A DNA stretch of 64,000 nt. Source: Sphaerisporangium sp. TRM90804. Lineage in GTDB: Bacteria; Actinomycetota; Actinomycetes; Streptosporangiales; Streptosporangiaceae. Location: the NCBI RefSeq assembly GCF_029846175.1, contig NZ_JARWAC010000025.1, forward strand, positions 1 through 64,000, in the 5' to 3' direction. The notes under the pieces were generated by a model. The model saw only the letters and a program-made list of their open reading frames with translations, made no database searches and was not told where the DNA came from. Below are positions 12,734 to 39,700 of this stretch, piece by piece. Positions within the stretch are counted from its first letter, which is position 1, and each line of letters opens with the position of its first letter. The position numbers and the translations under genes are program-made.

Positions 12734-12751
12734 GAGTTGAGGAGTCGGGTC

Positions 12752-13537: not shown

Positions 13538-13540
13538 GGC

Positions 13541-13599: not shown

Positions 13600-13647
13600 A
13601 GACGCCTTGGGATTGCTGGTTGCTGATCCCGAGCGGAGTCGAGCGTC

Positions 13648-14418: not shown

Positions 14419-14439
14419 TCACCTATTCATGGAGGCGTT

Positions 14440-14679: not shown

Positions 14680-14742
14680 GTGCAAGTGGACGCCAGGGCC
14701 GCCGTGCTGGGCTGTCGAACAGTCGAGTAGTTGTTGGTGGTC

Positions 14743-15477: not shown

Positions 15478-15561
15478 TGTGACCTATGTCACACACTCAC
15501 GCCGAAACTCATCTAGACGAGTAGACGTTTAGAGGTTAGATTCAACTCGACAGTTCGAGTT
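15478..15561 (+). promoter_or_regulatory. operator cluster upstream of the transfer-replication operon
   Basis: Three inverted repeats occur in 84 bp: TGTGAC-CTAT-GTCACA (15478-15493), operator O3 ACTCATCTAGACGAGT (15507-15522) and AACTCGA-CAGT-TCGAGTT (15544-15561). O3 matches O1/O2 in the form ACTCnTCTAGAnGAGT and, like O2, is followed by AGACG. The cluster precedes the gene at 15587 and so probably sets expression of the whole traB-rep-xis-int operon. Confidence 0.65.
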
Positions 15562-15586
15562 GGCAACAGAACGACAGGAGAACGAC

Positions 15587-16006: not shown

Positions 16007-16287
16007 TGGGCGGCCGGGTCAACGGGTCCTGGCAGAGCACGGCGTTACATGTGGACGGGCGGGGGCGGGTGGCGTGTCTGGCCTACCCGCACCGCACGCC
16101 GATCCTGGAGGTCGCGGCGGGCAACGCGGTCATCAAGGTGACGTTGCATGCCAACCGGGTGGACTACGCCTCGGTGATGTTCGCCCGGGAGATGGCCGAT
16201 CAGGCCGGCGCCTTCGCCGCTGAGGTCGAGCGGCTGTATCTGGTTCAGGTCCGGCAGGAGTCCAAGCGGAAGGAAGGCGTGGCATGA
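16006..16287 (+). CDS. AICE hypothetical protein (93 aa)
   Basis: A 93-residue protein starting MGGRVNGSWQSTALHVDG. It shows beta-strand propensity in the first half and an amphipathic helix at the C-terminus (FAREMADQAGAFAAEVERLY). Start and stop overlap both neighbours (TGATG and ATGA), so it is translationally coupled within the operon. It and the following gene share the pattern strand-rich head, then a FAR(E/D) helix near the C-terminus, and may be distant paralogues. No function is known to me. Confidence 0.6.
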   Translation: MGGRVNGSWQSTALHVDGRGRVACLAYPHRTPILEVAAGNAVIKVTLHANRVDYASVMFAREMADQAGAFAAEVERLYLVQVRQESKRKEGVA

Positions 16288-16625
16288 GCGGCGGCTACAG
16301 CTACACGACGATCAGCATGCGGCCGGGCCGGTCACCTGTGGTCGATGTGTCCGTCTACCCCGACGAGCACGCGCGGGTCCAGTACTACCCCGCCACCGAC
16401 GGCCCGCTTGCGTTCCTGTCGGTGGACCACGGCGACGCCAAAGTGAACATCGGCACGACCAAGCACACCACGGTCACCGACGCGCACGTGCGCTTCGCCC
16501 GCGACCTGTTCGAGGCCGCTGCCCGGTTCCTGGCCGACTGTGAACGGCTGCGTGACGAGCACGTCGGCGACTCCGGCGACACCGGTACCGGTACTGGTCA
16601 GGCGACGCCCGGCAAGGCGGCCTGA
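16284..16625 (+). CDS. AICE hypothetical protein (113 aa)
   Basis: A 113-residue protein starting MSGGYSYTTISMRPGRSPVV. It has the same layout as its upstream neighbour: short beta strands, then the helix VRFARDLFEAAARFLADCE, and a Gly/Thr-rich tail. The ATG overlaps the previous stop. A strong hairpin (16635-16668) follows before traB, so translation and transcription of traB may be set separately. Confidence 0.6.
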   Translation: MSGGYSYTTISMRPGRSPVVDVSVYPDEHARVQYYPATDGPLAFLSVDHGDAKVNIGTTKHTTVTDAHVRFARDLFEAAARFLADCERLRDEHVGDSGDTGTGTGQATPGKAA

Positions 16626-16634
16626 TCGTTTAGC

Positions 16635-16668
16635 GGGGCCGCTGGAAGCGGCAACTTCCGGCGGCCCC
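16635..16668 (+). terminator. hairpin upstream of traB (terminator or attenuator)
   Basis: GGGGCCGC / GCGGCCCC encloses a second stem GGAAG / CTTCC with a CGGCAA loop, giving about 13 paired bases. It lies 47 bp before the traB start. It may attenuate transcription into the transfer genes; there is no U-tract. Confidence 0.5.
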
Positions 16669-16715
16669 CCGGTTCTCTCCCTGCGACTCAACTCACCTGA
16701 AGAGGTGTTCAGTTT

Positions 16716-18140
16716 ATGCTGCGCAAACTCCCCGGCGACTACACCCGCGACATCGTCTCCACCGCCCCCAGCTCCCTCGTCTTTCGCCCCGTCGTCGTCA
16801 ACACCCCGGCCATCTTCACCCTCGCCGCGATGCTGCTGAGGGCCGTCGTAGCCCTGGCCCGTACGCTGTGGCGGCACCCTGTCGCCTGCCCAGCCGTCGC
16901 CATCCCGGCGGCACTGTGCTGGCTGTATGGTTGGCATCTCGCCCTGATCGCCGTCGTCTCGGTCACCACGGGGTTGGCCGGGTGGTGGCTGGCTCATCCG
17001 GTCTCGTTCAAGCCGTGGGTGGGGCTGCGGTTGTACGCCTGGTGGCGGTGGATGAGCAACTACCGCCGGCACTGGCAACCCGTCATGGTCGTCTCCGGGC
17101 TGGCCAAGCACGTGGGCGGCCGGGAGTACCTACCCCGGCTGCTCAAGGTCACCTGCACCCCCACCGCCGACGTAGTGCGCCTGAAGATGCTCTCCGGTCA
17201 GGCGGCCGAGGAATGGCAGGACAGGGCCGGCAACCTCGCCCACGGGTTCGCCGCTCCCGAGTGTCGGGTCAAGGTCGACAAGCCCGGCCGGATCACGCTG
17301 GTTCTGCCGCGCCGTGACCTGCTGGCCACCCCGATACCCGCGCTGCCGATCCCCGGCGACGTGCAGGCCTCTGCGGTACCGATCGGGCATCACGAGGACG
17401 GGACCCTCTACCGGCTCAAGCTGCACGGCACACACGTCCTGGTCGCCGGGGCGACCGGGGCCGGAAAAGGCTCGTGGCTGTGGTCGGCCATTCGCGGCCT
17501 GCTGCCGGCCGTGCTCGCCGGGCTGGCCCAGATCTGGGCGCTGGACCCCAAGCTCATGGAGCTGTCCTACGGACGCGCCTTGTTCGGCGACCACTACGCC
17601 GCAGACCCCGCCGCCTGCGCCGACCTTCTCGAAGCCGCGGTGAAGGTCATGCAGGAGCGGGCCGCACGGTTCGCCGGCGTGCAACGCAACCACGTGCCCA
17701 CCGTCGAGGACCCGTTCGTGCTGGTCATCGTGGATGAGGTGGCGTTCCTCACCGCCTACCAGACCGACCGCAAACTCAAGGAACGCATCAGTGCCGCTCT
17801 GGCCACTCTCACCACGCAAGGCCGCGCGGTCGGTGTCGGGGTGATGGCGGCACTCCAAGACCCCCGCAAAGAGATCCTGTCCATCCGCAACCTGTTCCCC
17901 GACAAGATCGCTCTACGGCTCGATGAGCCCTCGCAGGTGGATCTCGTCCTCGGCGACGGGGCACGCGACCGGGGCGCCCTGGCCGATCACATCTCCTCCA
18001 CCCCCGCCCTGGGCGCCGGCGTCGGATACGTCCGCCTCGAAGCCTGCCCCGAACCGGTCCGCGTCCGCGCGGCGTTCGTCTCCGATGCCGATATCCGCGC
18101 GATGGTCGCGGACTTCGCCAAGGCCGGTGAGAGGCGATGA
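16716..18140 (+). CDS. FtsK/SpoIIIE-type conjugative DNA translocase (TraB/TraSA-like)
   Basis: A 474-residue transfer protein of the AICE. Actinobacterial TraB-type hexameric ATPases move double-stranded DNA between hyphae without relaxase nicking. Two hydrophobic segments lie around residues 30-85 and anchor the protein in the membrane. The FtsK ATPase domain has Walker A GATGAGKGSW near residue 250 and Walker B VLVIVDEVAFL near residue 337. It is shorter than FtsK because the long linker is missing. Its stop overlaps the next ATG (ATGA). It lies upstream of rep-xis-int as in pSAM2. Confidence 0.88.
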   Translation: MLRKLPGDYTRDIVSTAPSSLVFRPVVVNTPAIFTLAAMLLRAVVALARTLWRHPVACPAVAIPAALCWLYGWHLALIAVVSVTTGLAGWWLAHPVSFKPWVGLRLYAWWRWMSNYRRHWQPVMVVSGLAKHVGGREYLPRLLKVTCTPTADVVRLKMLSGQAAEEWQDRAGNLAHGFAAPECRVKVDKPGRITLVLPRRDLLATPIPALPIPGDVQASAVPIGHHEDGTLYRLKLHGTHVLVAGATGAGKGSWLWSAIRGLLPAVLAGLAQIWALDPKLMELSYGRALFGDHYAADPAACADLLEAAVKVMQERAARFAGVQRNHVPTVEDPFVLVIVDEVAFLTAYQTDRKLKERISAALATLTTQGRAVGVGVMAALQDPRKEILSIRNLFPDKIALRLDEPSQVDLVLGDGARDRGALADHISSTPALGAGVGYVRLEACPEPVRVRAAFVSDADIRAMVADFAKAGERR

Positions 18141-18286
18141 CGCTGGCGCACATCCTGGACGGCCTGCGCTGCGCCTGCTGCGGGGGCCTCAACGTGCTGT
18201 GGCTGGATGCCGTCCGGGGGCTGGTGGAGTGCCGCCAGTGCGGTGAGCGGGCTGGCTGCCTGGTCGACTGTGGTGAGGCCGCGTGA
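18137..18286 (+). CDS. small zinc-ribbon protein (49 aa)
   Basis: A 49-residue protein starting MTLAHILDGLRCACCGGLNV, with CACC and CRQC pairs about 22 residues apart, a compact zinc-ribbon layout. Both ends overlap neighbours by four bases: ATGA with traB and GTGA with rep. This strongly supports translation despite the small size. Its place between traB and rep suggests an accessory role in replication or transfer; nothing more can be stated. Confidence 0.65.
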   Translation: MTLAHILDGLRCACCGGLNVLWLDAVRGLVECRQCGERAGCLVDCGEAA

Positions 18287-19965
18287 CCAACCCCGGTGAA
18301 CGCGCCATCCCGCGCGCTGTCCGCCAGTCCATGCCGGTGGCCCTGGACGTCATCGAGGAGGTGGCCAAGCAGCACGGCGTGTGCATCCGTCCGGTGCCGC
18401 TCCGGCGGACCGAGGTCATGACGGGCCGGGTCGAGTTCGTGAACATCCCGTGCGGCGCCACCTTGGAGACCAGGTGCGAACCGTGCGCCAAGCGGGCCGT
18501 GCAGCTCCGCAAGGCGCAATGCCGGGAGGGCTGGCACCTGGAGGCCGAACCGGTCACCGAGCCGGCGGAACCGACCGAACGCCAACTCTGGCTCATCGAG
18601 GAACGTGCCGACGCTCACGTGCTGCGAGAGCTGGCCGAGGAGACCGGCGGGGACGTGGCCGTGTGGGATGAGGTGGTCACGACCCTGGAGGATGAGTTGG
18701 CCACCTCCGGTGTCCGGGGGAGTGTGCTGCCCGGCTCGGGCAAGCCCAAGCGGTCGCGCTCGACGCGTCGCCGGCAGGACGCCCCGGACCTGCCCAAGCG
18801 GCAACGGGAGAACCGCACGGTCGGACGCACCTTCACCGCGCCAGACGGCGCCGTGTACCGGCCCTCGCTGTTCATCACCCTGACCTGCGACAGCTACGGC
18901 AAGGTCCGCTCGGACGGCACCCCGGTCGACCCCTCGACGTATGACTACGTCCGGGCCGCCAGGGATGCGATCCACTTCCCCAAGCTGGTGGACCGGTTCG
19001 TGCAGAACCTTCGCCGCGTCGCCGGGTATGACGTTCAGTACTTCGCCACCGTCGAACCCCAACGCCGCCTGGCACCACACCTGCACATGGCCGTCCGCGG
19101 CACCATGCCACGGGCCGAGGTCAAGGCCGTCGCCGCGGCGACGTATCACCAAGTCTGGTGGCCACCGTGTGACCAAGTCCGCTTCGAGGGCGAGCACCTT
19201 CCGGTCTGGGTCACCGACGAGCACACCGCCGATCGCATCGACGGGCAGGCCGGCGACTACCTCGACCCCGCAACGGGCGAAGTGCTGCCGACCTGGGAAC
19301 AGGCGCTCGACCAACTCGACACCGACCAGGAGGCCGAACCCCTGCACGTGGTGCGCCTGGGCCAACAGGTCGACGTCAAAGGCGTACTCGCCGGATCGCC
19401 CGACGCGGACAAGGGCCTGCACTACCTGTCCAAGTACCTCACCAAGTCCTTGTCCCAATGCCACGAGATCAATAGCACTGCCGTCCGGGCGCATGTGGAA
19501 CGGCTGATGAACGTGCTCCGCTACGAACCGTGCGCACCCACCTGCCCCAACTGGTTGCGCTACGGCGTGCAACCCAAGGGCGCCAAGTCGGGGATGCGTC
19601 CGGGTGGGTGCCGGGGCAAGGCACACAAGCCCGAACACCTCGGTTACGCCGGCCGCCGCGTCCTGGTCTCGCGCAAGTGGTCCGGCAAGACCCTCACCGA
19701 ACACAAGCAGGACCGGCGGGCCTGGGTGCTGGAACAGCTCGGCGTTTCGGCAACCGAAGACGAGACGCCACCCGTCGACCCGCACCGCTACCTGTGGCGC
19801 GTCGCCGCCCCGTCGGACCGCGACGTGCCACCCCTGGCCGAGCGACTCCTCAAAGAGATCGCCAATCGCCAACGCTGGCGCACCGCACTCAGACAAGCCC
19901 AAGCCAGAGCAGATGGGCGCCCCAACGAGGAATCACCAGCGATCAGATTGAGGAGGGCGGCATGA
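18283..19965 (+). CDS. RepSA-like HUH replication initiator
   Basis: A 560-residue replication initiator of the RepSA type, which drives rolling-circle replication of AICEs after excision. The N-terminal region carries cysteines of a zinc finger (CEPCAKRAVQLRKAQC). The metal-binding HUH motif is H266-L-H268 in RLAPHLHMAVRG. The candidate nucleophile tyrosines are Y381 and Y385 in GLHYLSKYLTKS. The start is GTG 18283, overlapping the zinc-ribbon stop. The double-strand origin of such elements usually lies in or near this gene; I did not identify it. Confidence 0.85.
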   Translation: MTNPGERAIPRAVRQSMPVALDVIEEVAKQHGVCIRPVPLRRTEVMTGRVEFVNIPCGATLETRCEPCAKRAVQLRKAQCREGWHLEAEPVTEPAEPTERQLWLIEERADAHVLRELAEETGGDVAVWDEVVTTLEDELATSGVRGSVLPGSGKPKRSRSTRRRQDAPDLPKRQRENRTVGRTFTAPDGAVYRPSLFITLTCDSYGKVRSDGTPVDPSTYDYVRAARDAIHFPKLVDRFVQNLRRVAGYDVQYFATVEPQRRLAPHLHMAVRGTMPRAEVKAVAAATYHQVWWPPCDQVRFEGEHLPVWVTDEHTADRIDGQAGDYLDPATGEVLPTWEQALDQLDTDQEAEPLHVVRLGQQVDVKGVLAGSPDADKGLHYLSKYLTKSLSQCHEINSTAVRAHVERLMNVLRYEPCAPTCPNWLRYGVQPKGAKSGMRPGGCRGKAHKPEHLGYAGRRVLVSRKWSGKTLTEHKQDRRAWVLEQLGVSATEDETPPVDPHRYLWRVAAPSDRDVPPLAERLLKEIANRQRWRTALRQAQARADGRPNEESPAIRLRRAA

Positions 19966-20150
19966 CTACAGGAGACCGGCTTCTTTTCACTCCGGCCGAT
20001 GCGAGCGAAATGCTCGGGCTCGGCAAGACGAAGGTCTATGAACTGATGGCATCAGGCGAGCTGCACTCGGTCAAGATCGGCCGGTGCCGGCGCATTCCCG
20101 CCAGGGCGCTGTACGCGTTTCTTTCGGCAATCGAGCAGGAGGCGGCGTGA
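19962..20150 (+). CDS. xis: excisionase (Xis, HTH_17/MerR-like)
   Basis: A 62-residue winged-helix DNA-binding protein starting MTTGDRLLFTPADASEMLGL. The helix-turn-helix GLGKTKVYELMASGELHSVK followed by IGRCRRIPARAL is typical of AICE excisionases, which bind near att and turn the integrase toward excision. It overlaps rep by four bases (ATGA) and int by four bases (GTGA), the standard rep-xis-int order. Confidence 0.88.
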   Translation: MTTGDRLLFTPADASEMLGLGKTKVYELMASGELHSVKIGRCRRIPARALYAFLSAIEQEAA

Positions 20151-21283
20151 GCGGGCGTCGGCGGTCACAGGGCGAAGGCTCGGTGTTCAAGCGCAAGGAT
20201 GGGCTCTGGTCCGGCGCCGTAGATCTGGGCTGGGTGAACGGTAAGAGGATTCGCAAGACGGTCTACGGGAAGACCGAGAAAGAAGTTCTCGGCAAGCTCG
20301 CCGAACTGAAGGATGCCCAGCGTAAGGGGCAGAACCTGGCCGCTCGGCCTCGGAAGTTCGCCGAGTGGCTAGATGAGTGGATCGAGATGAAGAAGCGGCA
20401 GGGCACTCGTCCCCTCACACTTCGCGGGTATCGGCAGCTCATTCACGATCACGTGAAGCCGGCCCTTGGGCGAAAGCAGCTCGACAAACTCACCCCCACA
20501 GATGTCCGACGGCTGATCGAGGCGAAAGCAGAGTCCGGTCTTTCGGCAGCGACGGTCAAGCAGGTTCACGGGTTGATCCGCAATGCTCTGGCCGATGCGG
20601 AACGCGAGGAATTGATACACCGCAACGTGGCGAAGCTCGTCAAGCCTCCGTCCGTCAAGCGTGACGAAGCCAGAGTGCTGACGATCGAAGAGGCCAAGAG
20701 CCTTATCAACACGATCAAGGGCGACCGGCTCGAAGCTTTCTGGATCTGCGCTCTGACTCTCGGCCTGCGGCGCGGGGAACTCCTCGGGCTTCGATGGGAG
20801 GACATCGATTTCGGCAAGGGGCTTCTAGCGGTGCGCCAGAGCCTTCAGCGGGCGGACGGGTCACTTCAGCTCGTTGACCCCAAGACCAGCCGGTCACGTC
20901 GCGCCGTACCTGTCCCTGAGCCGACCCTGGCCGCTCTGCGGAAGCACAAGCGAGAGCAGGCCGCCGAACAACTCGCCGCGGGGGAGAGGTGGAAGAGCAG
21001 CGGGCTTGTGTTCGCCTCCACCATCGGCACGCCGATCGAACCGGGGAACCTGAGCACCAGGTGGCGGAAGACCAGGGCCAAGGCTGGCCTCGACTGGCTG
21101 CGGCTGCACGACCTTCGACACGCCTGCGCCTCGTTCCTGATCGCCTGCGGGGCCTCTCCCCGAACGGTGATGAAGACGCTCGGACACAGTCAGATCGGGC
21201 TGACGATGAACACCTACGCTCACGTCCTGCCCGGGATCGAGCGGGAGGCCGTCGATGCGGTCGCCAAGAAGCTTTTCGGATGA
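20147..21283 (+). CDS. int: tyrosine integrase of the AICE
   Basis: A 378-residue tyrosine recombinase that integrates and, with Xis, excises the element at the tRNA-Lys site. It has an N-terminal AP2-like arm-binding region (SVFKRKDGLWSGAVDLG), a SAM-like core-binding domain (about 65-150), and a catalytic domain with Arg in LGLRRGELLGLRW, HDLRH near residue 320, and LGHSQIGLTMNTYAHV with nucleophile Tyr near residue 356. The GTG at 20147 overlaps the xis stop; a longer start would overlap xis much further. Its stop is 108 bp from the right att. Confidence 0.92.
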   Translation: MSGRRRSQGEGSVFKRKDGLWSGAVDLGWVNGKRIRKTVYGKTEKEVLGKLAELKDAQRKGQNLAARPRKFAEWLDEWIEMKKRQGTRPLTLRGYRQLIHDHVKPALGRKQLDKLTPTDVRRLIEAKAESGLSAATVKQVHGLIRNALADAEREELIHRNVAKLVKPPSVKRDEARVLTIEEAKSLINTIKGDRLEAFWICALTLGLRRGELLGLRWEDIDFGKGLLAVRQSLQRADGSLQLVDPKTSRSRRAVPVPEPTLAALRKHKREQAAEQLAAGERWKSSGLVFASTIGTPIEPGNLSTRWRKTRAKAGLDWLRLHDLRHACASFLIACGASPRTVMKTLGHSQIGLTMNTYAHVLPGIEREAVDAVAKKLFG

Positions 21284-21297
21284 GCGCCAGAAGCGCA

Positions 21298-21352
21298 AGG
21301 GCCGGGCTCCCAAGACGGGGTCCGGCCCTGTTGGCTGTAGAGGATGGCTGTA
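21298..21352 (+). terminator. int terminator and right-end TGGCTGTA repeats
   Basis: AGGGCCGG / CCGGCCCT (21298-21329) forms a terminator-like hairpin just after int. It is followed by two direct TGGCTGTA words (21332 and 21345), matching the words found inside the left end at 10093-10118. These are candidate arm-type sites for the integrase. Confidence 0.6.
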
Positions 21353-21391
21353 GTGCGGGCCGAAGCAAGGCCCAACACGCCTGTTTTCGCT

Positions 21392-21435
21392 GGTGGGCCG
21401 CCAGGGACTCGAACCCTGAACCTACGGATTAAAAG
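21392..21435 (-). repeat. right att repeat of the AICE and left att of the next element
   Basis: Forty-four bases matching 9962-10005 with one mismatch (C at 21408). They again represent the tRNA-Lys(TTT) 3' half from anticodon loop to acceptor end on the minus strand. The tRNA 5' half is absent here too. The right flank therefore begins another element that uses the same site, and not the original chromosome. Confidence 0.88.
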
Positions 21436-24620: not shown

Positions 24621-24856
24621 CCCGCGTCCACGTCATCACCGATGCCCCCCGGCCGGGTCCCCGGCCGGTGCGGGCGTTTCTGCTTGCCGTGCTGGCGGCT
24701 GTGGTCGTCGTGCTCACCTACGTCGGTCACGTGGCGGCGCTGGTGCTCGGCGCGGTCGACGCGGTCATCGCCGCGCGGCTCGGCGTGCCACGCCTCGCGC
24801 GGTGCTACCGCCTGGTGTCGGTCGCCGTACGCAAGACATGGGAGGAAGACCAGTGA
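24617..24856 (+). CDS. small membrane protein (79 aa)
   Basis: A 79-residue protein with one long or two short hydrophobic segments (about 19-55, RAFLLAVLAAVVVVLTYVG) and a C-terminal amphipathic tail. The ATG overlaps the preceding stop (ATGA) and its own stop overlaps the next GTG (GTGA). It is a second Spd-like candidate in the transfer-like operon, with no recognised family. Confidence 0.6.
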   Translation: MTRVHVITDAPRPGPRPVRAFLLAVLAAVVVVLTYVGHVAALVLGAVDAVIAARLGVPRLARCYRLVSVAVRKTWEEDQ

Positions 24857-25209
24857 GCGGCAAGGACGCCAAGGTGCCCGCGCTGGAGGTCATCGAGTTC
24901 GACGGCTCTGAATCGATCGCCACCTACGCCAGCGTCTCGCGTGACCTCGCGTGGGCGCTGTGCATGGAGTACGAGGGCAGCTCTGATGAGCTGTACGCGG
25001 TGCTGTGCGAGATGGGCGAGGGTCACCCGCTGGCGTTCGGCCTGGACGTGAAGTGGCGGGCCCGGCGGGTGTGCAAGCGGCTGGATCGGATGGCCGAGAT
25101 GGCCGCCGGCCTGGCCGTGGAGTCGGTGAAGCTGAACCTGGAGTACTGCCGGGAGTTCGCCGAGCTGGTCAAGCCGGTGCCCAAGCGGCAACGCAAGTGG
25201 GACTGGTGA
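24853..25209 (+). CDS. hypothetical protein upstream of the translocase (118 aa)
   Basis: A 118-residue mostly helical protein from GTG 24853, starting VSGKDAKVPALEVIEFDGSE and ending with the basic tail KPVPKRQRKWDW. No known motif is present. It is coupled to the upstream gene (GTGA) and lies three bases from the translocase start. Position suggests an accessory or regulatory partner of the translocase. Confidence 0.55.
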   Translation: MSGKDAKVPALEVIEFDGSESIATYASVSRDLAWALCMEYEGSSDELYAVLCEMGEGHPLAFGLDVKWRARRVCKRLDRMAEMAAGLAVESVKLNLEYCREFAELVKPVPKRQRKWDW

Positions 25210-25211
25210 TC

Positions 25212-27203
25212 ATGGCCAACCGCAAAGGTGGCCAGACCACCATCACCGAGATGCAGGACACCTCGATGGACCGGATCATGGCCCGCGGGGTGTCCAAGGT
25301 CGCCGTGTACGCCTCCCCGTGGATCGTCGGCGTACTCATCCTTGGGTTGGGGTCAGCGTTCCACTTCATCCTCGACTCCGACGACCCCGAGACCGTGGCG
25401 TGGACGTCGTGGTTCATGGCCTTCTGCTCGGCCGTGCTCGCGGCCGTCGCCTACGGGCAGTCGCATGCGCGTGGGCCGTGGGGGCGCACGCACACGACGC
25501 TGACCACGTTCCTGGCCGGGCTGTGGGTGTGCGGCGCCACCTTCCAAGGAGTGCTGCATCCGATCTTCGGACGCCTGTCGCTGATCGGCGGCGTGACGCT
25601 GGTCCTTACCTGGAACATCCGCTCGGCGATTCGGCACACCGGGCTCGACACCCCTGGCGCCGTCCAGGACAAGCTCGGGTGGTTGTTCGGCCACGGCGCC
25701 GAAGCCGCCGGCATGCCGGGCGTGCAGGCCCGCACGACCAAGATCGGGCAGCACAAGGTCGAGGGCAAGGTCCAACTGGAGCAGGGCCAGCAGGTCGCCG
25801 AGGACTTGCAGAAGAAGGTCAAGTACATCGAGTCCGGCGTCCCCCTGCCCCCGGGCTCCATCATCGCGACGCTCGACCCCGACGACGCCAGTCAGGCAAA
25901 CGTCAGCGTCTCCGACCCCCGCGTGCTGCGCAACCGGATCCCGTGGCCGGGCCCGTCGCGGCCGAACGGGTCGATCGGCGAGGCGATCCGTCTCGGGTTG
26001 TGGCAAGACCTGGACCCGGTCGAGTGGACGATCCTGGGCGCGCACGTCGTCATCAACGGCATGACCGGCTCGGGCAAGTCGATCGGTGGGGCGTGGAACT
26101 TCCTGGCCGAGGCCGGTACCCGGTATGACGTGGCGATCTTCGCGGCGGACACCGCCAAGCAGGACCAGACCCTCGGCCCGCTGCGCCCGATGTTGCACCG
26201 CTTCGAGACCGACATCAAGCAAGTGCGCGCCATGCTGCGCCGCCTGCACGAGCAGGCGCCCAAGCGCACCCAGTGGCTGGCCGAACGCGGCTTCCAGAAG
26301 TGGGTGCCCGGGTGCGGCCTGGCTTACTGGATCGTCTGGTTGGAGGAGTTTCCGAAGATCTTTGACGCGCTGCCGTCCAAGGAGCAGGACAAGTTCTTGG
26401 AGCTGGTGAAGGAGCTGCGCTCGGCCGGCGGCACCATCGCCATGAGCCTGCAACGCAGCGACTACAGCCAGATGCCGACCTTGGCGCGCGGCCAGGGCGC
26501 AAAGTGGTGCTTCGGCCTGGAAAGCGCCAAGGACGCCAAGTTCGGCCTGTCGGAAGCCCAGCAGGAGACCGGCGCCGCCCGGCCCGAGCTGTGGGCCAAC
26601 AAACGGGCCGGCATGTCCTACCTGGACGCGCCCTCCATTCCCGAGGAGCGGATCGCGATGCCGAACCGCACCTGGGACTGGGGCGAGAGCGACCAGGAGG
26701 CTAACGCGCGGATGCGTCGGCACGCCGAGTCTTGGCCTGCGGCGGCCAAGGAGGTCGACGAGTTCACTGCGATCATCTGCGCGAACTACGGCCCCGACGC
26801 CGTCGGCGACGAGGATCGAGAGGAGGACGACGAGGACGACCCGATGGCCGAGCACGTCAAGACCGAGGACCCCTCGCCCGACATCGAGGCCAACGCCGAC
26901 GACCCGATCGAGCCGCTCAACAAAGCGAAGTTCCCGCCGCGGCCCGCGCCGAAGATGCCGCCCGAGCAGGCCCGTGGGGTGCTGCTGGAGCAGCTCGCCG
27001 CGTGGGTGCGCGCCGGGCGGGAGGAGTTCGCCACCCGGGACCTGAAGGAGGTGAAGGAGCGCACCGGGTACAGCTCGCGGGGCTGGCTGAACGACCAGTT
27101 GACCCTGCTGGCCGAGGACGGGGTCATCGAGCGGGACGACATCGCCCGGTGCTACCGGATCTTGCGCGCCGATCTGCTGGCCGGGGACCCCGCTGGGGTG
27201 TGA
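25212..27203 (+). CDS. membrane-anchored FtsK/TraB-like DNA translocase
   Basis: A 663-residue FtsK-type motor. Four membrane segments lie at about 33-53, 64-82, 97-115 and 121-136. A linker is followed by the ATPase domain with Walker A NGMTGSGKS near residue 285 and Walker B YWIVWLEEF near residue 372. A Q-R-S-D sensor-like segment (AMSLQRSDYSQM) and an acidic spacer (EDREEDDEDDP) precede a C-terminal winged helix (about 590-660). The wing corresponds to the DNA-reading domain of TraB and FtsK. Right after the stop lie phased GCGACACC repeats, as clt follows traB on Streptomyces plasmids. GTG 25206 is an alternative start. A conjugative translocase beside prophage genes is unusual. Confidence 0.85.
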   Translation: MANRKGGQTTITEMQDTSMDRIMARGVSKVAVYASPWIVGVLILGLGSAFHFILDSDDPETVAWTSWFMAFCSAVLAAVAYGQSHARGPWGRTHTTLTTFLAGLWVCGATFQGVLHPIFGRLSLIGGVTLVLTWNIRSAIRHTGLDTPGAVQDKLGWLFGHGAEAAGMPGVQARTTKIGQHKVEGKVQLEQGQQVAEDLQKKVKYIESGVPLPPGSIIATLDPDDASQANVSVSDPRVLRNRIPWPGPSRPNGSIGEAIRLGLWQDLDPVEWTILGAHVVINGMTGSGKSIGGAWNFLAEAGTRYDVAIFAADTAKQDQTLGPLRPMLHRFETDIKQVRAMLRRLHEQAPKRTQWLAERGFQKWVPGCGLAYWIVWLEEFPKIFDALPSKEQDKFLELVKELRSAGGTIAMSLQRSDYSQMPTLARGQGAKWCFGLESAKDAKFGLSEAQQETGAARPELWANKRAGMSYLDAPSIPEERIAMPNRTWDWGESDQEANARMRRHAESWPAAAKEVDEFTAIICANYGPDAVGDEDREEDDEDDPMAEHVKTEDPSPDIEANADDPIEPLNKAKFPPRPAPKMPPEQARGVLLEQLAAWVRAGREEFATRDLKEVKERTGYSSRGWLNDQLTLLAEDGVIERDDIARCYRILRADLLAGDPAGV

Positions 27204-27325
27204 GGTGTCGCGTGGGGGCTGGGGGGTGTCGCGGGAGGAGGGGTTACAGGTCAGGGGCTCGCGACACCTGTCGCGACACCTTGCGACACCCCGTCGCGAC
27301 ACCCTCGCGACGGTGCCGCGACACC
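27204..27325 (+). repeat. clt/TRS-like array of GCGACACC repeats
   Basis: The 8-mer GCGACACC occurs at 27261, 27273, 27283, 27296 and 27318, with a degenerate copy at 27307. Spacing is 10-13 bp, about one helical turn. Two inverted copies (GGTGTCGC) lie at 27204 and 27225, 21 bp apart. The extended consensus is TCGCGACACC. The array starts at the last base of the translocase gene. In Streptomyces plasmids the TraB recognition site (clt) is a non-coding cluster of specific 8-bp repeats near traB; size, position and phasing fit that model. Confidence 0.72.
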
Positions 27326-27522
27326 CCGAACAAGATCACAAAGAGCGGATCGCGCGCATCCCACGCGCAGCCGTGCGCGCGGGGGGCACGGTGACCCTCT
27401 GCCACGCGCAGGCGTGGAAGGCGTGGCGGCGCTTATCACCCTGGCGAGGGGGACAAAGGACAGCGCCGCCACGCCCGAACCCGCCTGACCCACGCTGCGG
27501 GTGGACAGGCCAGACGGGTGGC

Positions 27523-28677: not shown

Positions 28678-29898
28678 TCAGGCTGCGATCCCCATGCGTC
28701 GCGCGACGCCCCGCAGGCGCGTCGGAACGCGGCGCTGAGTGTCCAGGAGCCGGGCAATGGTCTCCCGCGCCATGGGGTGATACCGCGTCCGCTGGGCGGC
28801 AATCTGCTCAGCCCGCAGGACGCAGTCGAGAGCTTTCTCCGGCTTGCGCTGCCACAGCCACGCCCGGGACAGATCGATGAAATGGTGCGAGGTCCGCTCG
28901 GCCGACAGCGACGGCGGAAGCTCCAGCCCCGCGCCGCGACGGATGGCCTCGTCGGCGTCCCCCAGTTCGATGGCGACCGCAACCTCGTGGATCGCGGTGT
29001 TGCTCGGGCCGAACAGCAGACCGTAGTCGGGGGTGTCGTGGCGGACGCGGGCAGCGACATCCCCGGCTTGAGCCATGTGCTCCCACGCGTCTCCCGTGCG
29101 ACTGTCCCGCGCTGCCAAGATCGCGGCACGGAGATGGAGGGTGCCGTACACACTGAGCACCGCCTGGTCGTCGGACAGGTCCGCTTCGAGGCTTTCGCGG
29201 GTTCGGCTGAGCAAGGTCAACCCTCCACCGTAAGCGCCCGACGCGACGAACGCCATGCTGCGGCGGACATCAGCGACCGGCGGCAAGAGCGGGTCATCGG
29301 AGCGCCCCGCGGCCCACGCCATCCGTTCCACCGCGATGTGAAACAAGTCCAGGTATCCCAGCTTGTAGGCCATGGAGTCCGCAGCGCTGTAAGCCGAGGC
29401 CAGCAGGGAATACACCTCGGCCTCTCGGCTGGCTCCGATGGTGTGGGCGTGGACGGTCAGCTCTTTGATCACCGCAGGGAGCATCGTTCCCAGCTCGACG
29501 TACCGTGCCGCTTGCCGGAGGGCTGTGGCGCGGTCGACGGCGGCACGCAGGTCAGAGACCGAGCGCGGCGGCACGTCGAGTTCTGGGGTGATGTCCCAGT
29601 AGACGAGGGCTTCACGGATCTCGGGGATGGTGGCGTGGATGCGATCGGTGTCGGCGGTGCGTCCCCGGTACGGCTGCCCGGTAAGTTCGGTCACCTGCAC
29701 GCGGAGCGCACGCGCCACGGCCCCGATCAGAGAGGGGGTGGCTGGCTTGTGTCCCCCCTCAACCTGAGCGATCAAGCTCTTAGAGCAGGGAACCAGCTCG
29801 GCAAGCTCGCGCTGTGTCAGCTTGCGCAGCTTCCTTGCGTGGGCGATGCGGCGACCGATCATGTCATCGCCGAAAGGGACCGTGTTAACCTCGCTCAT
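28678..29898 (-). CDS. XRE-family regulator with C-terminal TPR-like domain
   Basis: A 406-residue protein. Residues 15-70 form an XRE helix-turn-helix (RKLTQRELAELVPCSKSLIA). The remaining ~320 residues are helical repeats resembling the TPR-type domains of large actinobacterial XRE regulators, which sense small ligands or peptides. The ATG at 29898 was chosen because upstream codons fall in the intergenic region. It lies downstream of the lysis operon's terminator and upstream of a palindrome and the 27523-28519 operon, so it may control accessory or transfer genes rather than lysogeny. Confidence 0.8.
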   Translation of the reverse strand: MSEVNTVPFGDDMIGRRIAHARKLRKLTQRELAELVPCSKSLIAQVEGGHKPATPSLIGAVARALRVQVTELTGQPYRGRTADTDRIHATIPEIREALVYWDITPELDVPPRSVSDLRAAVDRATALRQAARYVELGTMLPAVIKELTVHAHTIGASREAEVYSLLASAYSAADSMAYKLGYLDLFHIAVERMAWAAGRSDDPLLPPVADVRRSMAFVASGAYGGGLTLLSRTRESLEADLSDDQAVLSVYGTLHLRAAILAARDSRTGDAWEHMAQAGDVAARVRHDTPDYGLLFGPSNTAIHEVAVAIELGDADEAIRRGAGLELPPSLSAERTSHHFIDLSRAWLWQRKPEKALDCVLRAEQIAAQRTRYHPMARETIARLLDTQRRVPTRLRGVARRMGIAA

Positions 29899-29998
29899 AA
29901 GCCCTGACCTTCCTGAAGCCTCGACAACTTCAGCGTAGGCCCCAGGGCTTTTCTCTTGCCAGGACCAACCCGGCAGGGACTCCAGGCGCGACGAAGAA

Positions 29999-30032
29999 GC
30001 CCCGCCCACCCTCCGAAGAGGATGAGCGGGGC
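29999..30032 (-). terminator. strong terminator with TTCG tetraloop
   Basis: On the minus strand GCCCCGCTCATCCTC pairs with GAGGGTGGGCGGGGC (two G-U pairs) around a TTCG tetraloop, giving a 15-bp stem followed by TTCTTCG. It ends the minus-strand late/lysis operon after the 30054-30235 repeat units. Confidence 0.75.
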
Positions 30033-30581: not shown

Positions 30582-31421
30582 TCAGTTAGTTGCAGCGGGC
30601 GCCGGGGCGGGGTCGTCGTCGGTGACGTCGAGCCGCACCCGGACGTTCTCGATCGCCGCTTCGATCCGCGCAACGAGCGCGTCGGCGTCGACAGAGTCGT
30701 TCTGCGCAGCCAGCGCGTCGGCCAGCGCCCGCAGGGCTATGTCCTGGGCGCCCAGCTTGGCCAGGATCACGCGGAGCTGGGCGTGGCCGTCTTTGCCGTA
30801 CGCCCAGATCTGCCGGAACGCGGTCTTGGGGTCGATCTTCTGGCCGGGCTCCAGGATGCCTTCGCGGGCCGCCCACACGTCATCGGTGACGGTGCCGGTC
30901 ATCCGCTCGTAGACGGCGTCGGCGATCTCCTTGGCACTGGGCATGTCGTCCTCCTGGTAGTCGGGGTTCCAGAACCCCGCGATCACGTTGGCGGCCCTGA
31001 CCCTGCGCTTGCAGGCGTCCGCCGTGTTGCCCTCGATGGTCTGCACCCGGCCGTCCGGCAGCACGCGCTCGACGATGCCGACGTGGTCGATGGCGCCGAT
31101 CTGGTCGCTGCCGCCCCAGTCGAAGAAGACGACGGCACCGGGCCGGGCGTGGGCGCGGATGTTGGCGGTGGTGCCGGGATGCCAGCGGCCGGCGCGCTGC
31201 CCGTCCTGGGCATGCCACACGGTGAACGCCCGGTCCCCGGCCGGGAGCACGGCGTCGGCGCTTCGCGACTGGCGGGCCCAGTGGGTGATGCTCATCTGGC
31301 ACCACGGCGCGTTCAGGAACTCCTGGCCGTGCCGGGCGGCGTACTCGCGGGTGATCGGGTTGGGCCGGCCGGTCATGCCGAGGTCGCGCCGGGCCTCGGC
31401 GAGCACCGCCGCGGCGGTCAC
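30582..31421 (-). CDS. CHAP-domain endolysin
   Basis: A 279-residue lysin. The N-terminal CHAP amidase/peptidase domain (about 20-150) has catalytic Cys41 in NAPWCQ, His113 in IDHVGIVE and the following TIEGNT acidic/Asn position. It should cleave peptidoglycan cross-bridges or the amide bond. The C-terminal part is a helical region common in actinophage lysins and may bind the wall or multimerise. Its GTG overlaps the stop of the 51-aa gene. With the small membrane proteins around it, it forms the lysis cassette. Confidence 0.85.
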   Translation of the reverse strand: MTAAAVLAEARRDLGMTGRPNPITREYAARHGQEFLNAPWCQMSITHWARQSRSADAVLPAGDRAFTVWHAQDGQRAGRWHPGTTANIRAHARPGAVVFFDWGGSDQIGAIDHVGIVERVLPDGRVQTIEGNTADACKRRVRAANVIAGFWNPDYQEDDMPSAKEIADAVYERMTGTVTDDVWAAREGILEPGQKIDPKTAFRQIWAYGKDGHAQLRVILAKLGAQDIALRALADALAAQNDSVDADALVARIEAAIENVRVRLDVTDDDPAPAPAATN

Positions 31422-34336: not shown

Positions 34337-36778
34337 TCAGTACACCAGCGAGTTGGAGTCGACCCGGCCGAGCGTCGGGTGGCCGAGCGTCCAGAACGAA
34401 CCCGCGCGGCCGGCGGCCTGCAACGGCCACGAGGTCTCCCACCGTGGTGCCCCACCCCGCCCCGCACCGATCTCGTGGGTGACGCCTCTGATGAACACCT
34501 CGCGGGACACCAGGTCACCACCTCCGGGGGGTTGGCGTTCGATGAGGATCCGGTCTCCGATCTCCCGGCCGAGGACCACGGGGAACAACTCGTCGGGGTC
34601 GGCCTCGGGTCGGACCACGAGTTGGTCGAACCGCAGCTCGGGTTCCTTGGCGATGGACAGCACCCACTGGGCGTAGGCCAGGGCCTCGGCGTCGGACTGC
34701 ATGATCAGGTCGTCGCGCGGATAGGTCTTGGTGCGGTACTCCGCGCGTGAGGCGGCATCGGACGCGGTCTGCGGCGCACCGCCCACCCGCGCGATCCTGA
34801 CGTGGTTGGCCATCTGGGAACGGTCGTAGGCCACGCCGACGTCGTGGTAGGTCAGCCGCCCGCGCGCTGAACCGCCGGGTCCGAACCGGGCCTGCGCGAT
34901 GGTGGACCGGGTGTCGACGAGCAGGCCCTGCCGGTTGCGGAACACCACGTCACCGGACCCGTTGACGTACACCTCGCCGATCTCGGTGTCCGCGACGAGC
35001 TGCAACTCCGACAGGCCGTCGCCCTCCAGGGTGGTGGCTTGGAGCGTGGTGTTGCCGACGGCGATCTGCCGGTCTGAGGCTGGCCAGTCCAGTGAGTCCA
35101 GGATGCGCTCGACCCGGTCGCCGGCGTCTTCCCCGGCACCGACGGCCGCGACCGGGGCGCGGTCGTAGTCGGCCAGCACGCCAAGGCCGTCGGTGCATGG
35201 CACGGTGACCTCGGAGTCGTAAGTCTGCGTCCAGTTGATCAGCCAGTCGTCCACGAACCCGGTGAACAGATCCCAGGTGAACGACGCGGGCCGGGAGCTG
35301 GAGGAGGCGTGCGCGGTGCCGGTCCACGAGCACGCCGGCAGGGACCCGTCGCAGTACGGCGTCGCCGCGGGCTTCTCCTCGGCTTGGACGGCGTCGATGT
35401 AGGCGACGATCTGCCCATCGGCGTGGGTGTCGTTGGTCCAGACCTGGACCTCGATGTCGTCCAAGGTCGCGGTCAGGACGGCGGTGCGGGTGACCCGGTA
35501 CCAGGCGTCTGCGACCAGCCCGGCTGTCGACACGAAGTCGAACGTCACCCCGTCGGCGCCGATGACGATGCCGGTGACCTTGGGGAACGACGCGGCCGGG
35601 ATGTACACCCACGCCGAGATGGTGACGGTCTCCCCGGTGGTCGCACCGCCCGCGACAGAGGCGACCGCAGCGCCGTAGAGCTGAAACGGTGGGTTGGTCG
35701 CGGTCCGGCGGATCTCCAGGGCGTAGCCGCCGTGCCGGGCCACGTCCGGCACCCGGGAGATAGCGGTGTTCGCGGTGGCCGCCCACCCGGTGGTGTCGGT
35801 CTCGAACGAGGGGTTCTGCACCAGGTTGGTGGTCGCGGCGAAGGGGAAGCTCGCGCGCAGGCGAATCGGCCGGCCGGGCTTGACCCGGGTCGCGCTGCCG
35901 CTGCCGAACCCGGTGAGCTGCTTGGCCGCCAAGGATGCTGTGGTGTAGGAGCCGGACTGCCGGTCGGCCAGCTCCGACCAGCCGTCATCCTGCGGCGGGG
36001 TCCACGTCGCACCCGAGGCGCCGCCCTGCGACCCGGCCGCGACCCGGATCTCCAGGTCGTTAGTCGCGTGCGGCGTGGTGGCGGGCGTCCCCATCGCGGC
36101 GGACTCCGGGTTGGACTGGGAGAGGACGACCTCGGAGGAGGAAGCGTCCCAGTCCCGCACGGCGACGATGATGACCACGCCGTCAGCGCCGGAGTTCTGC
36201 GTGAAGGTGTAGCTGCTGGGCTCGCTGCCGCCGGCGGTCTTGGCCCACACCTTGCCCAGCAGCGTGTCATCGCCCTCGGAGCGGGTGCCGATGGCCGTCC
36301 CCCAGGACGCGCCACCGGTCGGGGTGCCCATCGACCCCAGGGTGGTGCCGACGTCGCAGAAGTGGAACGCCAGCAGCCTGTGCCCGGACAGGACACCGGA
36401 CGGCTTGGACACGGTGAAGCTGCCGGTCGTACCGGACGCGCGCGAGGAGACGCCCACCACGCTGGCCTGGAGGCCGACCGCCGACTTGACGTCGACCGTC
36501 CAGCCCTGACCGTAGGACTGGGTGACCTCGCACGTGAACGTCCGCACCCCGCTGTCGGAGGCGTACGCCTCGGTGTACGGCCCCGCGAGGTTGGTCGGGT
36601 CGAACCGCCTGTCCCGGTTGTCCAGGCGGATGGTGGCCGTCCCCGCGTCATAGCGGGTGATCGGAGACTCCACCCGTGAGGACCCGCGCTGGACCGACGC
36701 CCCCCGCAGCCACGGCGAGATGTCGGTCCAGGTCGGCTCAGTGAACTGGCACTCGACGATGATCTGCGGATAACTCAC
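34337..36778 (-). CDS. minor tail protein (813 aa)
   Basis: An 813-residue virion protein. The N-terminus (WTDISPWLRGASVQRGSSRV, then ATIRLDNRDRRFDP) matches the tail-associated proteins that follow the tape measure in siphoviruses of actinobacteria. The middle contains two beta-sandwich carbohydrate-binding-like regions (around 90-290 and 310-480). The C-terminal part (about 520-810) resembles the baseplate/tail-spike hub domain. The ATG overlaps the tape measure stop by four bases. It is probably a distal tail or adhesion component. Confidence 0.75.
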   Translation of the reverse strand: MSYPQIIVECQFTEPTWTDISPWLRGASVQRGSSRVESPITRYDAGTATIRLDNRDRRFDPTNLAGPYTEAYASDSGVRTFTCEVTQSYGQGWTVDVKSAVGLQASVVGVSSRASGTTGSFTVSKPSGVLSGHRLLAFHFCDVGTTLGSMGTPTGGASWGTAIGTRSEGDDTLLGKVWAKTAGGSEPSSYTFTQNSGADGVVIIVAVRDWDASSSEVVLSQSNPESAAMGTPATTPHATNDLEIRVAAGSQGGASGATWTPPQDDGWSELADRQSGSYTTASLAAKQLTGFGSGSATRVKPGRPIRLRASFPFAATTNLVQNPSFETDTTGWAATANTAISRVPDVARHGGYALEIRRTATNPPFQLYGAAVASVAGGATTGETVTISAWVYIPAASFPKVTGIVIGADGVTFDFVSTAGLVADAWYRVTRTAVLTATLDDIEVQVWTNDTHADGQIVAYIDAVQAEEKPAATPYCDGSLPACSWTGTAHASSSSRPASFTWDLFTGFVDDWLINWTQTYDSEVTVPCTDGLGVLADYDRAPVAAVGAGEDAGDRVERILDSLDWPASDRQIAVGNTTLQATTLEGDGLSELQLVADTEIGEVYVNGSGDVVFRNRQGLLVDTRSTIAQARFGPGGSARGRLTYHDVGVAYDRSQMANHVRIARVGGAPQTASDAASRAEYRTKTYPRDDLIMQSDAEALAYAQWVLSIAKEPELRFDQLVVRPEADPDELFPVVLGREIGDRILIERQPPGGGDLVSREVFIRGVTHEIGAGRGGAPRWETSWPLQAAGRAGSFWTLGHPTLGRVDSNSLVY

Positions 36779-39700
36779 GCCGGAAGCCGTCGCTTCGACT
36801 TGGCCATGTACCCATCCAGCATCTCGTAAAGATCTTTCGCGATTGCGTTCATGTTGGGGTGGTTGGGGATGTTGAAGTGGTTGTGCACCTCGATGCGGGG
36901 ACCGGCGACGCCCTCGTGCAACTGCCGCTGGGTGAAGGTGTACTCAGGCCGGGGGGTGCCGTTGTACTGGAGTTCTCCAGGGCCGAGAACGCCGCCGGAG
37001 TCCATCACCTTCATGCCGTACCGGCGGGTGAACAGCCCGTTGCTGGCGCCGCGGGCACCGCCGCCGATGACCACGCCGCGGCTGCCACGGGACTCGACGT
37101 TGACCCCGGCCAGGGTGCCGGCCATGTGCCCGACACCGGCATCGGTGACGCCGACCATCACGGGACTGCGAAGCCCGCGGCGGAATCCACCGGGCCCGCT
37201 GTTGGCGCCGAAGGAGTGCGTGGAGAACAGGCGCGAGTGCGGGTTCTTCCCCTTGATCTTGTTGACCACGGCGGACCACAGGCCCGAGCAGTCGTAGCCG
37301 CGCGGGCCCACACCACCCCAGACGTAGGGCTTTCCGCCCTGCGCACGGGCCCACCGCAGCGCGCCCTGTACGCCGGGTCCGCCGGCGAAGTCCTTGTTGA
37401 CCTTCTTGGCGACGTCCTTGCCGATGGTGGTGGCCCATTGGCCGTAGAGCCGGTTGGCCGCCGTGGTGATCTCGCGTACCCGGTCCAGGCCGGTGACGCC
37501 ACCGCGGTGGATGATGCCGCCGTCGGCGAAGAACGCGCCCTCCCCGCGCAACCGGTGGCGACCGACGCCCACGCCTTCGCCCATGGCGTTGCGGACGGCG
37601 GACACCCCGCCAGTGCGGGCCTTGGCGTTCCAGTAGTCGACGAGGCCGGGGCCAACCGCTTTGGTCCACTCCGGTCGCATGACCGCTTCGCCGCCGGACA
37701 ACCCTAGGGATCCGCCGGTTGGGCTGTTGAACAGGTGGACGTCGCGGCCGGGGGTGTAGCCCGGCAGGATGCCGCCGGAGGCGTAGACCGGGATGGTGCC
37801 GCCCTGCACCTTGTAGCCGATCAGCTTGCCGCCGGCCTTGACCTCGATCCGCACGGTCCGGTCGTTGATCTTCTTGGTTGCCTTGTTGATCGCCTCGGGC
37901 ATGGTGACATAGCGCTGGATCAGCCGGTCGATCGCAGTCTTGGACAGCCCGGACTTCTCCAGCACGCCACGCAGCCGCTCGATATGCCGCGCGAACGTCG
38001 TGTTGGCCCTGTCGACGCTGCCGGTCTGCTTGCGGACCTTGTCGGCGTGGTCGGCGGCGGAGCGGATCGCGTCGATGAGCAGGCGGTTGTTCTCCCGACC
38101 GGCCTTGTTCGAGATGTTGATCTTCCCGGTGCGGGCGTCGAGCCGCAGGCTGTTCTTGCCCAGGGCCGACGACAGCTCGTCCATGCTGTCGCGGAACCCG
38201 ATGGCCGCCATGTCGACGTCCCCGGTCATCGCCTTGAACCCGGCCAGCTTGCTGGTCAGGGTCCCGACCTTGCCTGCCGCTCGGCCTGCGGAGGTTTCGA
38301 CGTCGGTCATGCTGCCCGCGACCTCGGACGCTCCGGCGGCGACCTTCGGTGAGGCCGCGGTGAGGCGCTGGTACTGCTCTCGGGCGTTGGCCAGTTCGGC
38401 GTTGCTGCCGCCTACCGCGTTCTTCACCAGCAGGGCGCCGCCGGTGAGCTGCTTCTGTGCCACGGAGAAGGTGCCGAGCCGGCCGCCGGTGATCTGGACG
38501 TTGGTGGCGTGCGTCTGGAGCTGGGAGTTGACCTGGCCCAGGGCGTCGGTCTCGCCGAGCGCCGCCCGGGTCACCATGTCCAGGCGGATGCCGAGTTGCT
38601 GGGCGGCCTTATAGACGCCTTCGGTCTCCAGCCGGTTCTTGACGTTGGAGATCGCGTTGTCGTCCAGGGCGCCCTTGTTCTTCACCAGGGAATCGGTGAG
38701 GTCAGCCACCCGGCGCTCGGCCTCGTCGTTACGGGTGGCGAACAGCCCAAGCGCGGCGACGGCGCCGCCGAGCGCCATACCCCACGGGCCGGCCAGCACA
38801 CCGGTCACCGAGCCGAGAAGGCTCCGCGTCCGCGACGCCCCCGCCCCCAGGGCGGCCATCGGCCCACCGGCGTCGGCAACCTTGTCGCGCATCTGGCGTA
38901 CGCCGTCGGCGGCGTGCAGCCCGGCTGAGGCCAGGGCCCCGAACTTGCCGGCCAGTGGGCCCACGATCAGGGCCAGGGCCAACCCCTGTGTGACGACGCC
39001 GCGCAGCGGCTCAGGCAAGGAGGTGAGGATGTTGGCCACCAGGCCGAGTGGCCCGGCGACCAGCGGCAGCACCGCTCCCAGGTCGGCGGCGACCTCACGC
39101 ACCAAGCCCAGGGCGTTAGCGATCTCCTCTTGACCCTGGGCTGTCTTGGTCCAGGCGGCGAACCGCGCGGTGAGGCGTTCCACCGTGTCCAGGACTCCTT
39201 CACCGGAGTCCTCCATCTGGCCGAACACGCCGAGCACACCGACGCCGATGTTCTTGGTGATCCGGCCGAGGCTGGCCAGCGTGTCCCCGGCCCGGTCGAC
39301 GACCCGGTCCAGCTTGGCCGCGCCCTCCGCAGAGGTCAGGAATCCCGCCGCCGACTTCGCGCCGTTCGCCGCCCACTGAGACATGCGTTCAGCCAGCGGC
39401 AGACCCGCCACCGTCAACTGTGTGACGCTGGCCAGCGCCGGGCGGACGGCGCCGCCGAGGGTGGTCATGATGCGCGAGGTCGACGCGAACGTCTTGTTCA
39501 CCGCGCCCCGGGCCATGGGTGTTGCGGCGAACCGCAACGCCTCCCGGGTGCCGAAGTTGAAGCTCCCGGCCACGTCCAGCATCCCGGTGCGGATCCCCGG
39601 CAACAGGTTGGTGGCCACCGGGCGCATGTCCTTGGCCACGCCAGCGAACAAGCGGTCCTGCACGGCCCGCTGGATAGGGTCGAACGCGCCCTTCCACCGG

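Follow-up and report, generated by a model that had tools for sequence, protein, structure and literature searches.

The subject of this analysis is a 64,000-nucleotide stretch of Sphaerisporangium sp. TRM90804 DNA (contig NZ_JARWAC010000025.1, positions 1 to 64,000; hereafter the window), in which a prophage carries a gene for a TraB-like translocase followed immediately by an array of short repeats at 27204-27325. Comparison with related loci makes it very probable that this array is the TraB recognition site (TRS), i.e. a clt locus, and its simplest account would be a clt/TRS with its own specificity, read by the winged helix of TraB. The first-pass annotation of the window had proposed a candidate clt/TRS of a prophage-borne translocase; the comparisons support this proposal. 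The general arrangement is that of a clt/TRS, namely a short repeated word in non-coding DNA adjoining traB.

The array is built from the octamer GCGACACC. Five exact direct copies lie on the forward strand (27261-27268, 27273-27280, 27283-27290, 27296-27303 and 27318-27325), a sixth direct copy, degraded to GCGACGGT (GCGACGG), maintains the register between the fourth and the fifth of them (27307-27314, forward strand), and two inverted copies are present on the reverse strand (27204-27211, directly behind the traB stop codon, and 27225-27232). Thus, the earlier count of six repeats plus two inverted ones stands as eight copies, but these are not of equal quality, and the array starts not at the last base of the translocase gene, as had been annotated, but at the first base past its stop codon (27201-27203). 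The steps between the six direct copies are 12, 10, 13, 11 and 11 bp (mean about 11.4 bp), in agreement with the intervals of 10-13 bp reported initially. The octamer occurs 1218 times per 8,318,024 bases of the assembly; at this density 0.018 copies are expected in 122 bp, and the Poisson chance of at least seven copies in such a segment is near 1e-16 (local composition being ignored). Close tandem pairs of GCGACACC, with a gap of at most 10 bp, number five in the whole assembly, and three of them are in the array. The commonest 7-mer in the 330 bp after the stop codon is present in seven copies, with at most four reached in 60 dinucleotide shuffles. The array is real, and it is clustering, not abundance of the octamer, that is exceptional.

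The gene preceding the array (25212-27203, forward strand, ATG at 25212) encodes a double-stranded DNA translocase of 663 aa. The NCBIfam model of plasmid TraB, NF041214, matches it with E 3.4e-120, residues 28-653 being aligned to model positions 4-635 of 639; the score of 402.5 bits is under the equivalog cut-off of 800, and so is that of pJV1 TraB (784.5). Pfam at its cut-off gave no name to the translocase, PF01580 remaining sub-threshold (16.6 vs 24 bits). When the protein was compared by tblastn with 72,556 plasmid records, 51 of them contained a match, including the annotated TraB of the 11-kb conjugative plasmids pJV1 and pSN22, with 93-98% of the query covered. The best solved structures matched by its model in Foldseek were FtsK motors (E 8e-12), and the TraB family has a RecA motor of this FtsK/SpoIIIE type. 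On this homology across its length (NF041214, tblastn), the translocase is a full-length TraB homologue, as had been suggested. The whole-protein model comprises N-terminal helices, the motor and then a C-terminal winged helix, the last predicted with better confidence. At residues 584-650 (encoded by 26961-27161, forward strand) two AlphaFold models have the element order H-(E)-H-H-E-E, with the third helix, at residues 623-635, as the predicted recognition helix; the C-terminus is thus modelled as a winged helix, in accordance with the initial annotation, and the octamer covariation described below points to the same part of the protein. Directly 5' of traB, a gene of 118 aa (24853-25209, forward strand) resembles traA (NCBIfam NF041213, E 2.7e-7, 30.8 bits, under the cut-off of 80).

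TraB homologues (E 1e-60 or better) were found in 54 of 297 genomes of the family, the genome studied here included, and in 20 of 68 genera. From 113 TraB loci collected, 91 were left after removal of those with identical C-terminal 250 residues; L147, L153, L154 and L156 are later additions and stand outside all statistics, and L023 was kept with a C-terminus shortened by an in-frame TAG in traB. In L023 and L057, both of Streptosporangium pseudovulgare, this TAG lies ahead of the winged helix, and the repeat-bearing cassette is retained. In 77 of the 91 loci the sequence spanning the stop codon and what follows it (330 bp, up to 315 bp after traB) contains a 7-mer at least four times, both strands being counted, vs 53 of 363 control windows taken inside and before the genes. 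Seven of the 14 other loci (L030, L049, L052, L053, L056, L093 and L114) have an array 0.3-1.0 kb downstream, past an inserted stretch. Published clt loci did not inform the scan, and yet its positive controls were recovered: TGACACC in pWTY27 (L075) and CCGCACA in pJV1 and pSN22 (L076, L077). It has been reported that TraA(pWTY27) leaves footprints over four TGACACC in the clt of its plasmid, and that nine CCGCACA(C/G)(C/G) repeats are present in the clt of pJV1 (PMC3583192, in excerpt).

The repeated word differs between loci. GCGACACC is the octamer of the window and L036, GTGGCACC that of many relatives, GTGGCCCC that of L007, L040 and L095, and GTTGCACC that of L061, L063 and L064; another group of loci has words of the GTGACA type, and L011 has TCTCACC. 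Partial Mantel tests were used to relate distances between octamers, scored by profile similarity, to distances between proteins. They covered 86 loci, five of the 91 being left out as lacking a scorable array, and a close group of 54 loci, defined by a motor with 40% or more identity to that of the window's TraB. All 54 close loci have a traA-like gene upstream of traB. In this group octamer distance was correlated with that of the winged helix when the motor was accounted for (r 0.42, p 0.0005), and the converse test, octamer with motor given the winged helix, gave r -0.08 (p 0.84). After thinning to 37 loci the respective values were 0.44 and -0.05, and the nearest neighbour by winged helix shared the octamer class in 30 of 37 cases, that by motor in 24 of 37. 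For TraA (53 of the 54 loci scored, one row shorter than 70 aa having been dropped) correlation with the octamer given the winged helix was r -0.11 (p 0.92), and that of the winged helix given TraA was r 0.35 (p 0.0003). On these results for the motor and TraA, the part of TraB that goes with the word within the close group is the winged helix, not the motor, nor is it TraA. The earlier suggestion that the word is matched to this C-terminal domain is thus borne out among the close loci, in which octamer differences follow the winged helix.

A natural swap is provided by L049 and L060, whose TraB is 66% identical to that of the window in the motor and 37-39% in the winged helix, and which have GTGGCACC arrays. 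The recognition helix of the window's TraB, SRGWLNDQL, is shared by L036 (63% identical overall) and L153 (61%), both with GCGAC-type arrays right after the stop codon; in L153 it is a degraded one, in which GCGACAC is exact three times. The window included, this helix was found in three loci, and each has an array of the GCGAC type. Absence of the repeats from relatives with the same C-terminus had been named at the outset as an observation that would speak against the proposal, and when it was looked for, the repeats were present in both such relatives (L036, L153). In the recognition helix, the residue that immediately follows the conserved Trp is I or F where the word is GTGGCCCC (L007, L040, L095) and V where it is GTGGCACC (L038), which offers a lead for a residue-to-base rule.

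The covariation bears also on the possibility that the repeats are iterons of a replication origin, serving the replication proteins of the prophage. Iteron arrays are similar in look, the prophage contains a replication module with Prim-Pol and D5-type primase-helicase genes (59328-61687, reverse strand), and the array has a weak match (E 0.01) in Mycobacterium phage Butters (L013), at 3501-3539 in the coding part of gene 60, annotated as a replication initiation protein, which we treated as chance. However, the octamer tracks the winged helix of TraB, and the replication genes, at 59-62 kb, lie at a distance of over 30 kb. Moreover, arrays stand beside traB on rolling-circle plasmids (pJV1, pSN22), on the theta plasmid pWTY27 and on prophages, and the iteron of pWTY27 itself is located elsewhere, according to the excerpted text of PMC3583192. 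Thus, an origin seems very improbable.

The array appears within a longer cassette with constant boxes. The invariant box TTACAGGT, separate from the octamer, lies at 27244-27251, AAGATC opens the constant right-hand part at 27332-27337, and CACGCGCAGCC follows at 27362-27372, all on the forward strand. Because of these boxes the locus in the window extends to about 27384, and the 122 bp first given as its extent are too short. Exact TTACAGGT occurs up to 1.13 kb downstream of traB in 45 of the 91 loci, vs once in 361.6 kb of upstream control; the loci of Streptomyces plasmids are devoid of the exact box. Both AAGATC and CACGCGCAGCC were found in 34 loci, and in 32 of these the distance between them is 28-31 bp (extremes 25 and 32); the array that separates TTACAGGTC from AAGATC is 70-135 bp long. 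Enriched 9-mers, which were not picked by eye, confirm the cassette: TACAGGTCA is present in 48 of the 91 downstream regions and CACGCGCAG in 47, vs 0 and 1 upstream, respectively. In 14 of the 45 loci the TTACAGGT box has the direction of traB and in 31 the opposite one, and hence the cassette flips as one unit.

This orientation is of importance for another explanation, according to which the repeats would be operators of the transfer genes or of a phage repressor, or would mark the end of traB transcription. Hairpins could be formed with the inverted copies, and a repressor-like helix-turn-helix gene is located at 28678-30009. But the box is opposite to traB in those 31 loci and a gene intervenes in several, so that the cassette depends neither on the direction of traB nor on its 3' end; the register and the copy number are above those of ordinary operators, and the word covaries with the last domain of traB's own product. 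We consider operators or a terminator hardly credible, even less so than an origin.

The register itself was analysed from 209 steps in the 65 loci that have three or more copies on one strand, with cores that were partly chosen after the arrays had been seen. The steps measured 10-14 bp in 144 cases, 20-26 bp in 40, 15-19 bp in three, 8-9 bp in 17 and 5-7 bp in five, and the best period was 11.7 bp (strength 0.68 vs 0.42 at 10.5 bp). In the middle of the double steps a degraded copy was found more often than in shuffles (mean identity 0.74 vs 0.49; 36 of 40). The description of the array as helically phased was therefore nearly right, with one site per slightly more than one turn: the register is regular, but across relatives it is 11.7 bp and not 10.5 bp.

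When the boxes were used as a search pattern, AAGATC..CACGCGCAGCC matched 13 contigs, nine of them with TraB close by; the other four, with neither TraB nor an array nearby, were discarded as chance matches. The viral contig L154 has traB and two nearby copies of this pattern (9034-9462), with no array before the copy inspected. TTACAGGTC combined with GCGACACC gave 28 stretches in viral contigs, the known L036 contig (L148) among them, and the scan with the GTGGCACC form gave two contigs, both already known. In the window, AAGATC and CACGCGCAGCC with their rigid gap are followed by a GCG-rich inverted stretch (27332-27384 together), and just beyond the cassette, at 27420-27475, there is a perfect 14-bp inverted repeat (GGCGTGGCGGCGCT / AGCGCCGCCACGCC) with a 28-bp loop.

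Several observations weigh against the array as such or against its interpretation as a site read by TraB. GCGACACC is not rare as such: the 64-kb window contains 12 copies vs 7.4 expected, a number equalled in 7 of 100 shuffles, and hence the enrichment to be sought by a genome-wide count is found as clustering in the array, but only as a mild rise over the window. At least two loci, L105 and L110, have no visible array, even further downstream of traB, and pCQ4 (L084) is without a convincing one. In the close group the octamer was also correlated with TraA given the motor (r 0.22, p 0.006), the winged helix not yet being accounted for. Over the 86 loci, octamer distance was correlated both with the motor given the winged helix (r 0.25, p 0.0005) and with the winged helix given the motor (r 0.18, p 0.0005); both parts of TraB contribute in this wider set, and therefore the clean result is limited to the close group. 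Furthermore, partial Mantel tests leave some effects of shared descent. As to the structure, the whole-protein model is mediocre (mean pLDDT 63, 15 sequences). When the winged helix was submitted to Foldseek by itself, no solved structure reached E 0.001, so the assignment of the fold relies on the element order and on weak winged-helix hits, and the FtsK gamma domain was absent among the best 50 matches listed for it.

The element that carries the module is bounded by attachment (att) sites. A 47-bp att sequence at 9960 is repeated at contig position 64973, within an intact tRNA-Lys gene, and an imperfect copy, formed by the 3' end of a tRNA-Lys gene at 21392-21435, divides the two intervals. 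The left one (9960-21435, 11.4 kb) encodes GntR, an FtsK-type Tra, RepSA and an integrase and resembles an actinomycete integrative and conjugative element (AICE) at the same tRNA-Lys site. The right one is the prophage of 43.6 kb (21436-64000 and past the window, up to the att in tRNA-Lys at contig position 64973-65019), and the traA-traB-array module is located in it. With three att copies and an integrase at the right end of each element, we infer two tandem elements rather than one; a 55-kb composite could also excise, since the outer att copies are identical over 47 bp. The tyrosine integrase gene of the prophage, adjoining the right att copy, runs on the forward strand from 63337 to the window's end at 64000 and on to contig position 65037, with PF00589 above cut-off at 64300-64800. 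Genes for packaging, head, tail and lysis are all on the reverse strand: terminase large subunit (51156-52787), portal (49562-50911), major head protein (47420-48697), tail tape measure protein (36775-40086) and endolysin (30582-31421). Thus, the translocase is indeed borne by a prophage, as the first-pass annotation stated, that is, by an att-bounded element with its own integrase and virion genes.

Other genes of this prophage may be mentioned. An 869-aa protein with a PhoD-like phosphatase domain is encoded at 43744-46353, in the tail-side gene run, and a gene with HNH and AP2 domains, of the homing-endonuclease type, at 58481-58999. A 77-aa protein of helix-turn-helix appearance (61733-61966), judged by eye, is probably an excisionase; a 62% identical stretch is present near traB of L030.

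The proximity of the AICE-like element raises the question of whether the module is a relic, captured by a phage from an AICE or a plasmid and no longer working, and the degraded copy in the array would be in keeping with this. On the other hand, traB is open across 663 codons, the array and the boxes are intact, and octamer and reader are still matched in sister prophages over 30-37% protein divergence. A relic appears improbable to us.

Virion genes accompany the module elsewhere too. Among the first six IMG/VR records, a portal was above the Pfam cut-off in three and below it in one, and in the other two PHROG identifies a portal and a large terminase. G015 has a terminase homologue and, on the contig of its traB, a portal gene about 24 kb from the latter. 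The integrase, Prim-Pol, D5 helicase (81%) and tape measure protein of the window's prophage all have homologues in G023. Other TraB homologues are plasmid-borne (G009:C2, pJV1, pSN22, pWTY27). A tblastn search of 50,697 phage records with TraB found no homologue, and therefore named isolated phages offer no comparison; BLASTN of the array segment against the phage records gave weak matches only. PhiNon1 was considered as a phage with the same module and dropped, the published primer site being at 8.06 Mb and the chromosomal traB at 0.56 Mb.

A plausible mechanism can be proposed by analogy with TraB biology, from which binding, ring loading and transfer of the phage genome are all borrowed. 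The prophage would be excised first. TraB subunits would then bind the GCGACACC octamers, one per about 11.7 bp, each contact being made through the recognition helix (623-635) of the winged helix (about 584-650), and the array would thereby gather and orient the TraB ring. The ring would finally pump the circular phage DNA, in double-stranded form, into another hypha or compartment. That the array, as a clt/TRS locus, moves the prophage between cells has in our opinion roughly even chances. Alternatively, TraB and the array might serve spread of phage DNA within one mycelium, or septal segregation, and not transfer between strains. TraB is FtsK-like, and Streptomyces plasmids also spread inside the recipient mycelium (PMC4170104, PMC9513070, in excerpt); however, TraB with clt was enough for intermycelial transfer in the plasmids studied (excerpt of PMC3583192), and the TraB-array step is common to both explanations. 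We regard such an internal role as unlikely, though deserving of attention.

A broader hypothesis, to which we give somewhat less than even odds, is that a lineage of temperate siphophages of Streptosporangiaceae travels both as virions and as naked double-stranded DNA, the latter by means of its own TraB. Its address cassette would consist of a swappable octamer array in an 11.7-bp register between constant boxes (TTACAGGT; AAGATC, CACGCGCAGCC). A second factor would recognise the boxes, and recombination would move the array jointly with the neighbouring 3' end of traB, changing address and reader in one step. Judged by the literature consulted, what is new here is the prophage setting, the longer cassette with constant boxes, the 11.7-bp register and the switching of octamers on prophages and plasmids. 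The literature consulted on TraB, clt and prophages, mostly outside subscription papers, yielded nothing on covariation of octamer and winged helix or on a prophage TraB-clt module. Phage and conjugation biology would be joined in a complete-looking prophage that has both the one-protein system by which actinomycete plasmids transfer double-stranded DNA in conjugation and the address site of that system. The 91 TraB loci, with several octamer classes (GCGACACC, GTGGCACC, GTGGCCCC, GTTGCACC, GTGACAC/G, CCGCACA), form a natural data set that could yield the DNA-reading code of the FtsK-gamma-like domain of TraB. The fixed register and the constant boxes are constraints for models of ring loading, and the boxes allow clt loci to be found by DNA pattern in unannotated genomes.

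Among known systems, the clt of pWTY27 has a homologous Tra protein and direct repeats from the 3' end of the tra gene (PMC3583192, in excerpt), and its word was recovered by the same blind scan. GACACC is common to both words; hence the specificity, annotated as new, is new by sequence but not wholly alien. pWTY27 differs in being a plasmid without prophage structure, though with one capsid-like gene, in its word, (G)TGACACC vs GCGACACC, in its spacing, with 7-19 bp per step against a register of 11.7 bp, and in the absence of the exact TTACAGGT box. The clt of pJV1 and the repeats of pSN22 share the order TraA-TraB-repeats, and their TraB is a full-length homologue, but these are small rolling-circle plasmids with another word (CCGCACA), steps of 8-10 bp and no exact TTACAGGT box. 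In pSVH1, it is helix alpha-3 in the winged helix of TraB that reads the 8-bp repeats of the TRS/clt (PMC3583192, PMC4170104, both in excerpt); the mechanism proposed here is like it, the likeness being drawn from this description. AICEs of the pSAM2 type combine an integrase, Rep or Prim-Pol and an FtsK-like Tra (PMC3218068, in excerpt); the prophage possesses all three modules (integrase, Prim-Pol and Tra) and differs from AICEs by its additional terminase, portal, head, tail and lysis genes. Finally, pZL12, a Streptomyces plasmid-phage, and PhiNon1 of Nonomuraea, both from the same host group, resemble the prophage in combining a phage life cycle with plasmid traits (PMC5431353, PMC4487206, in excerpt).
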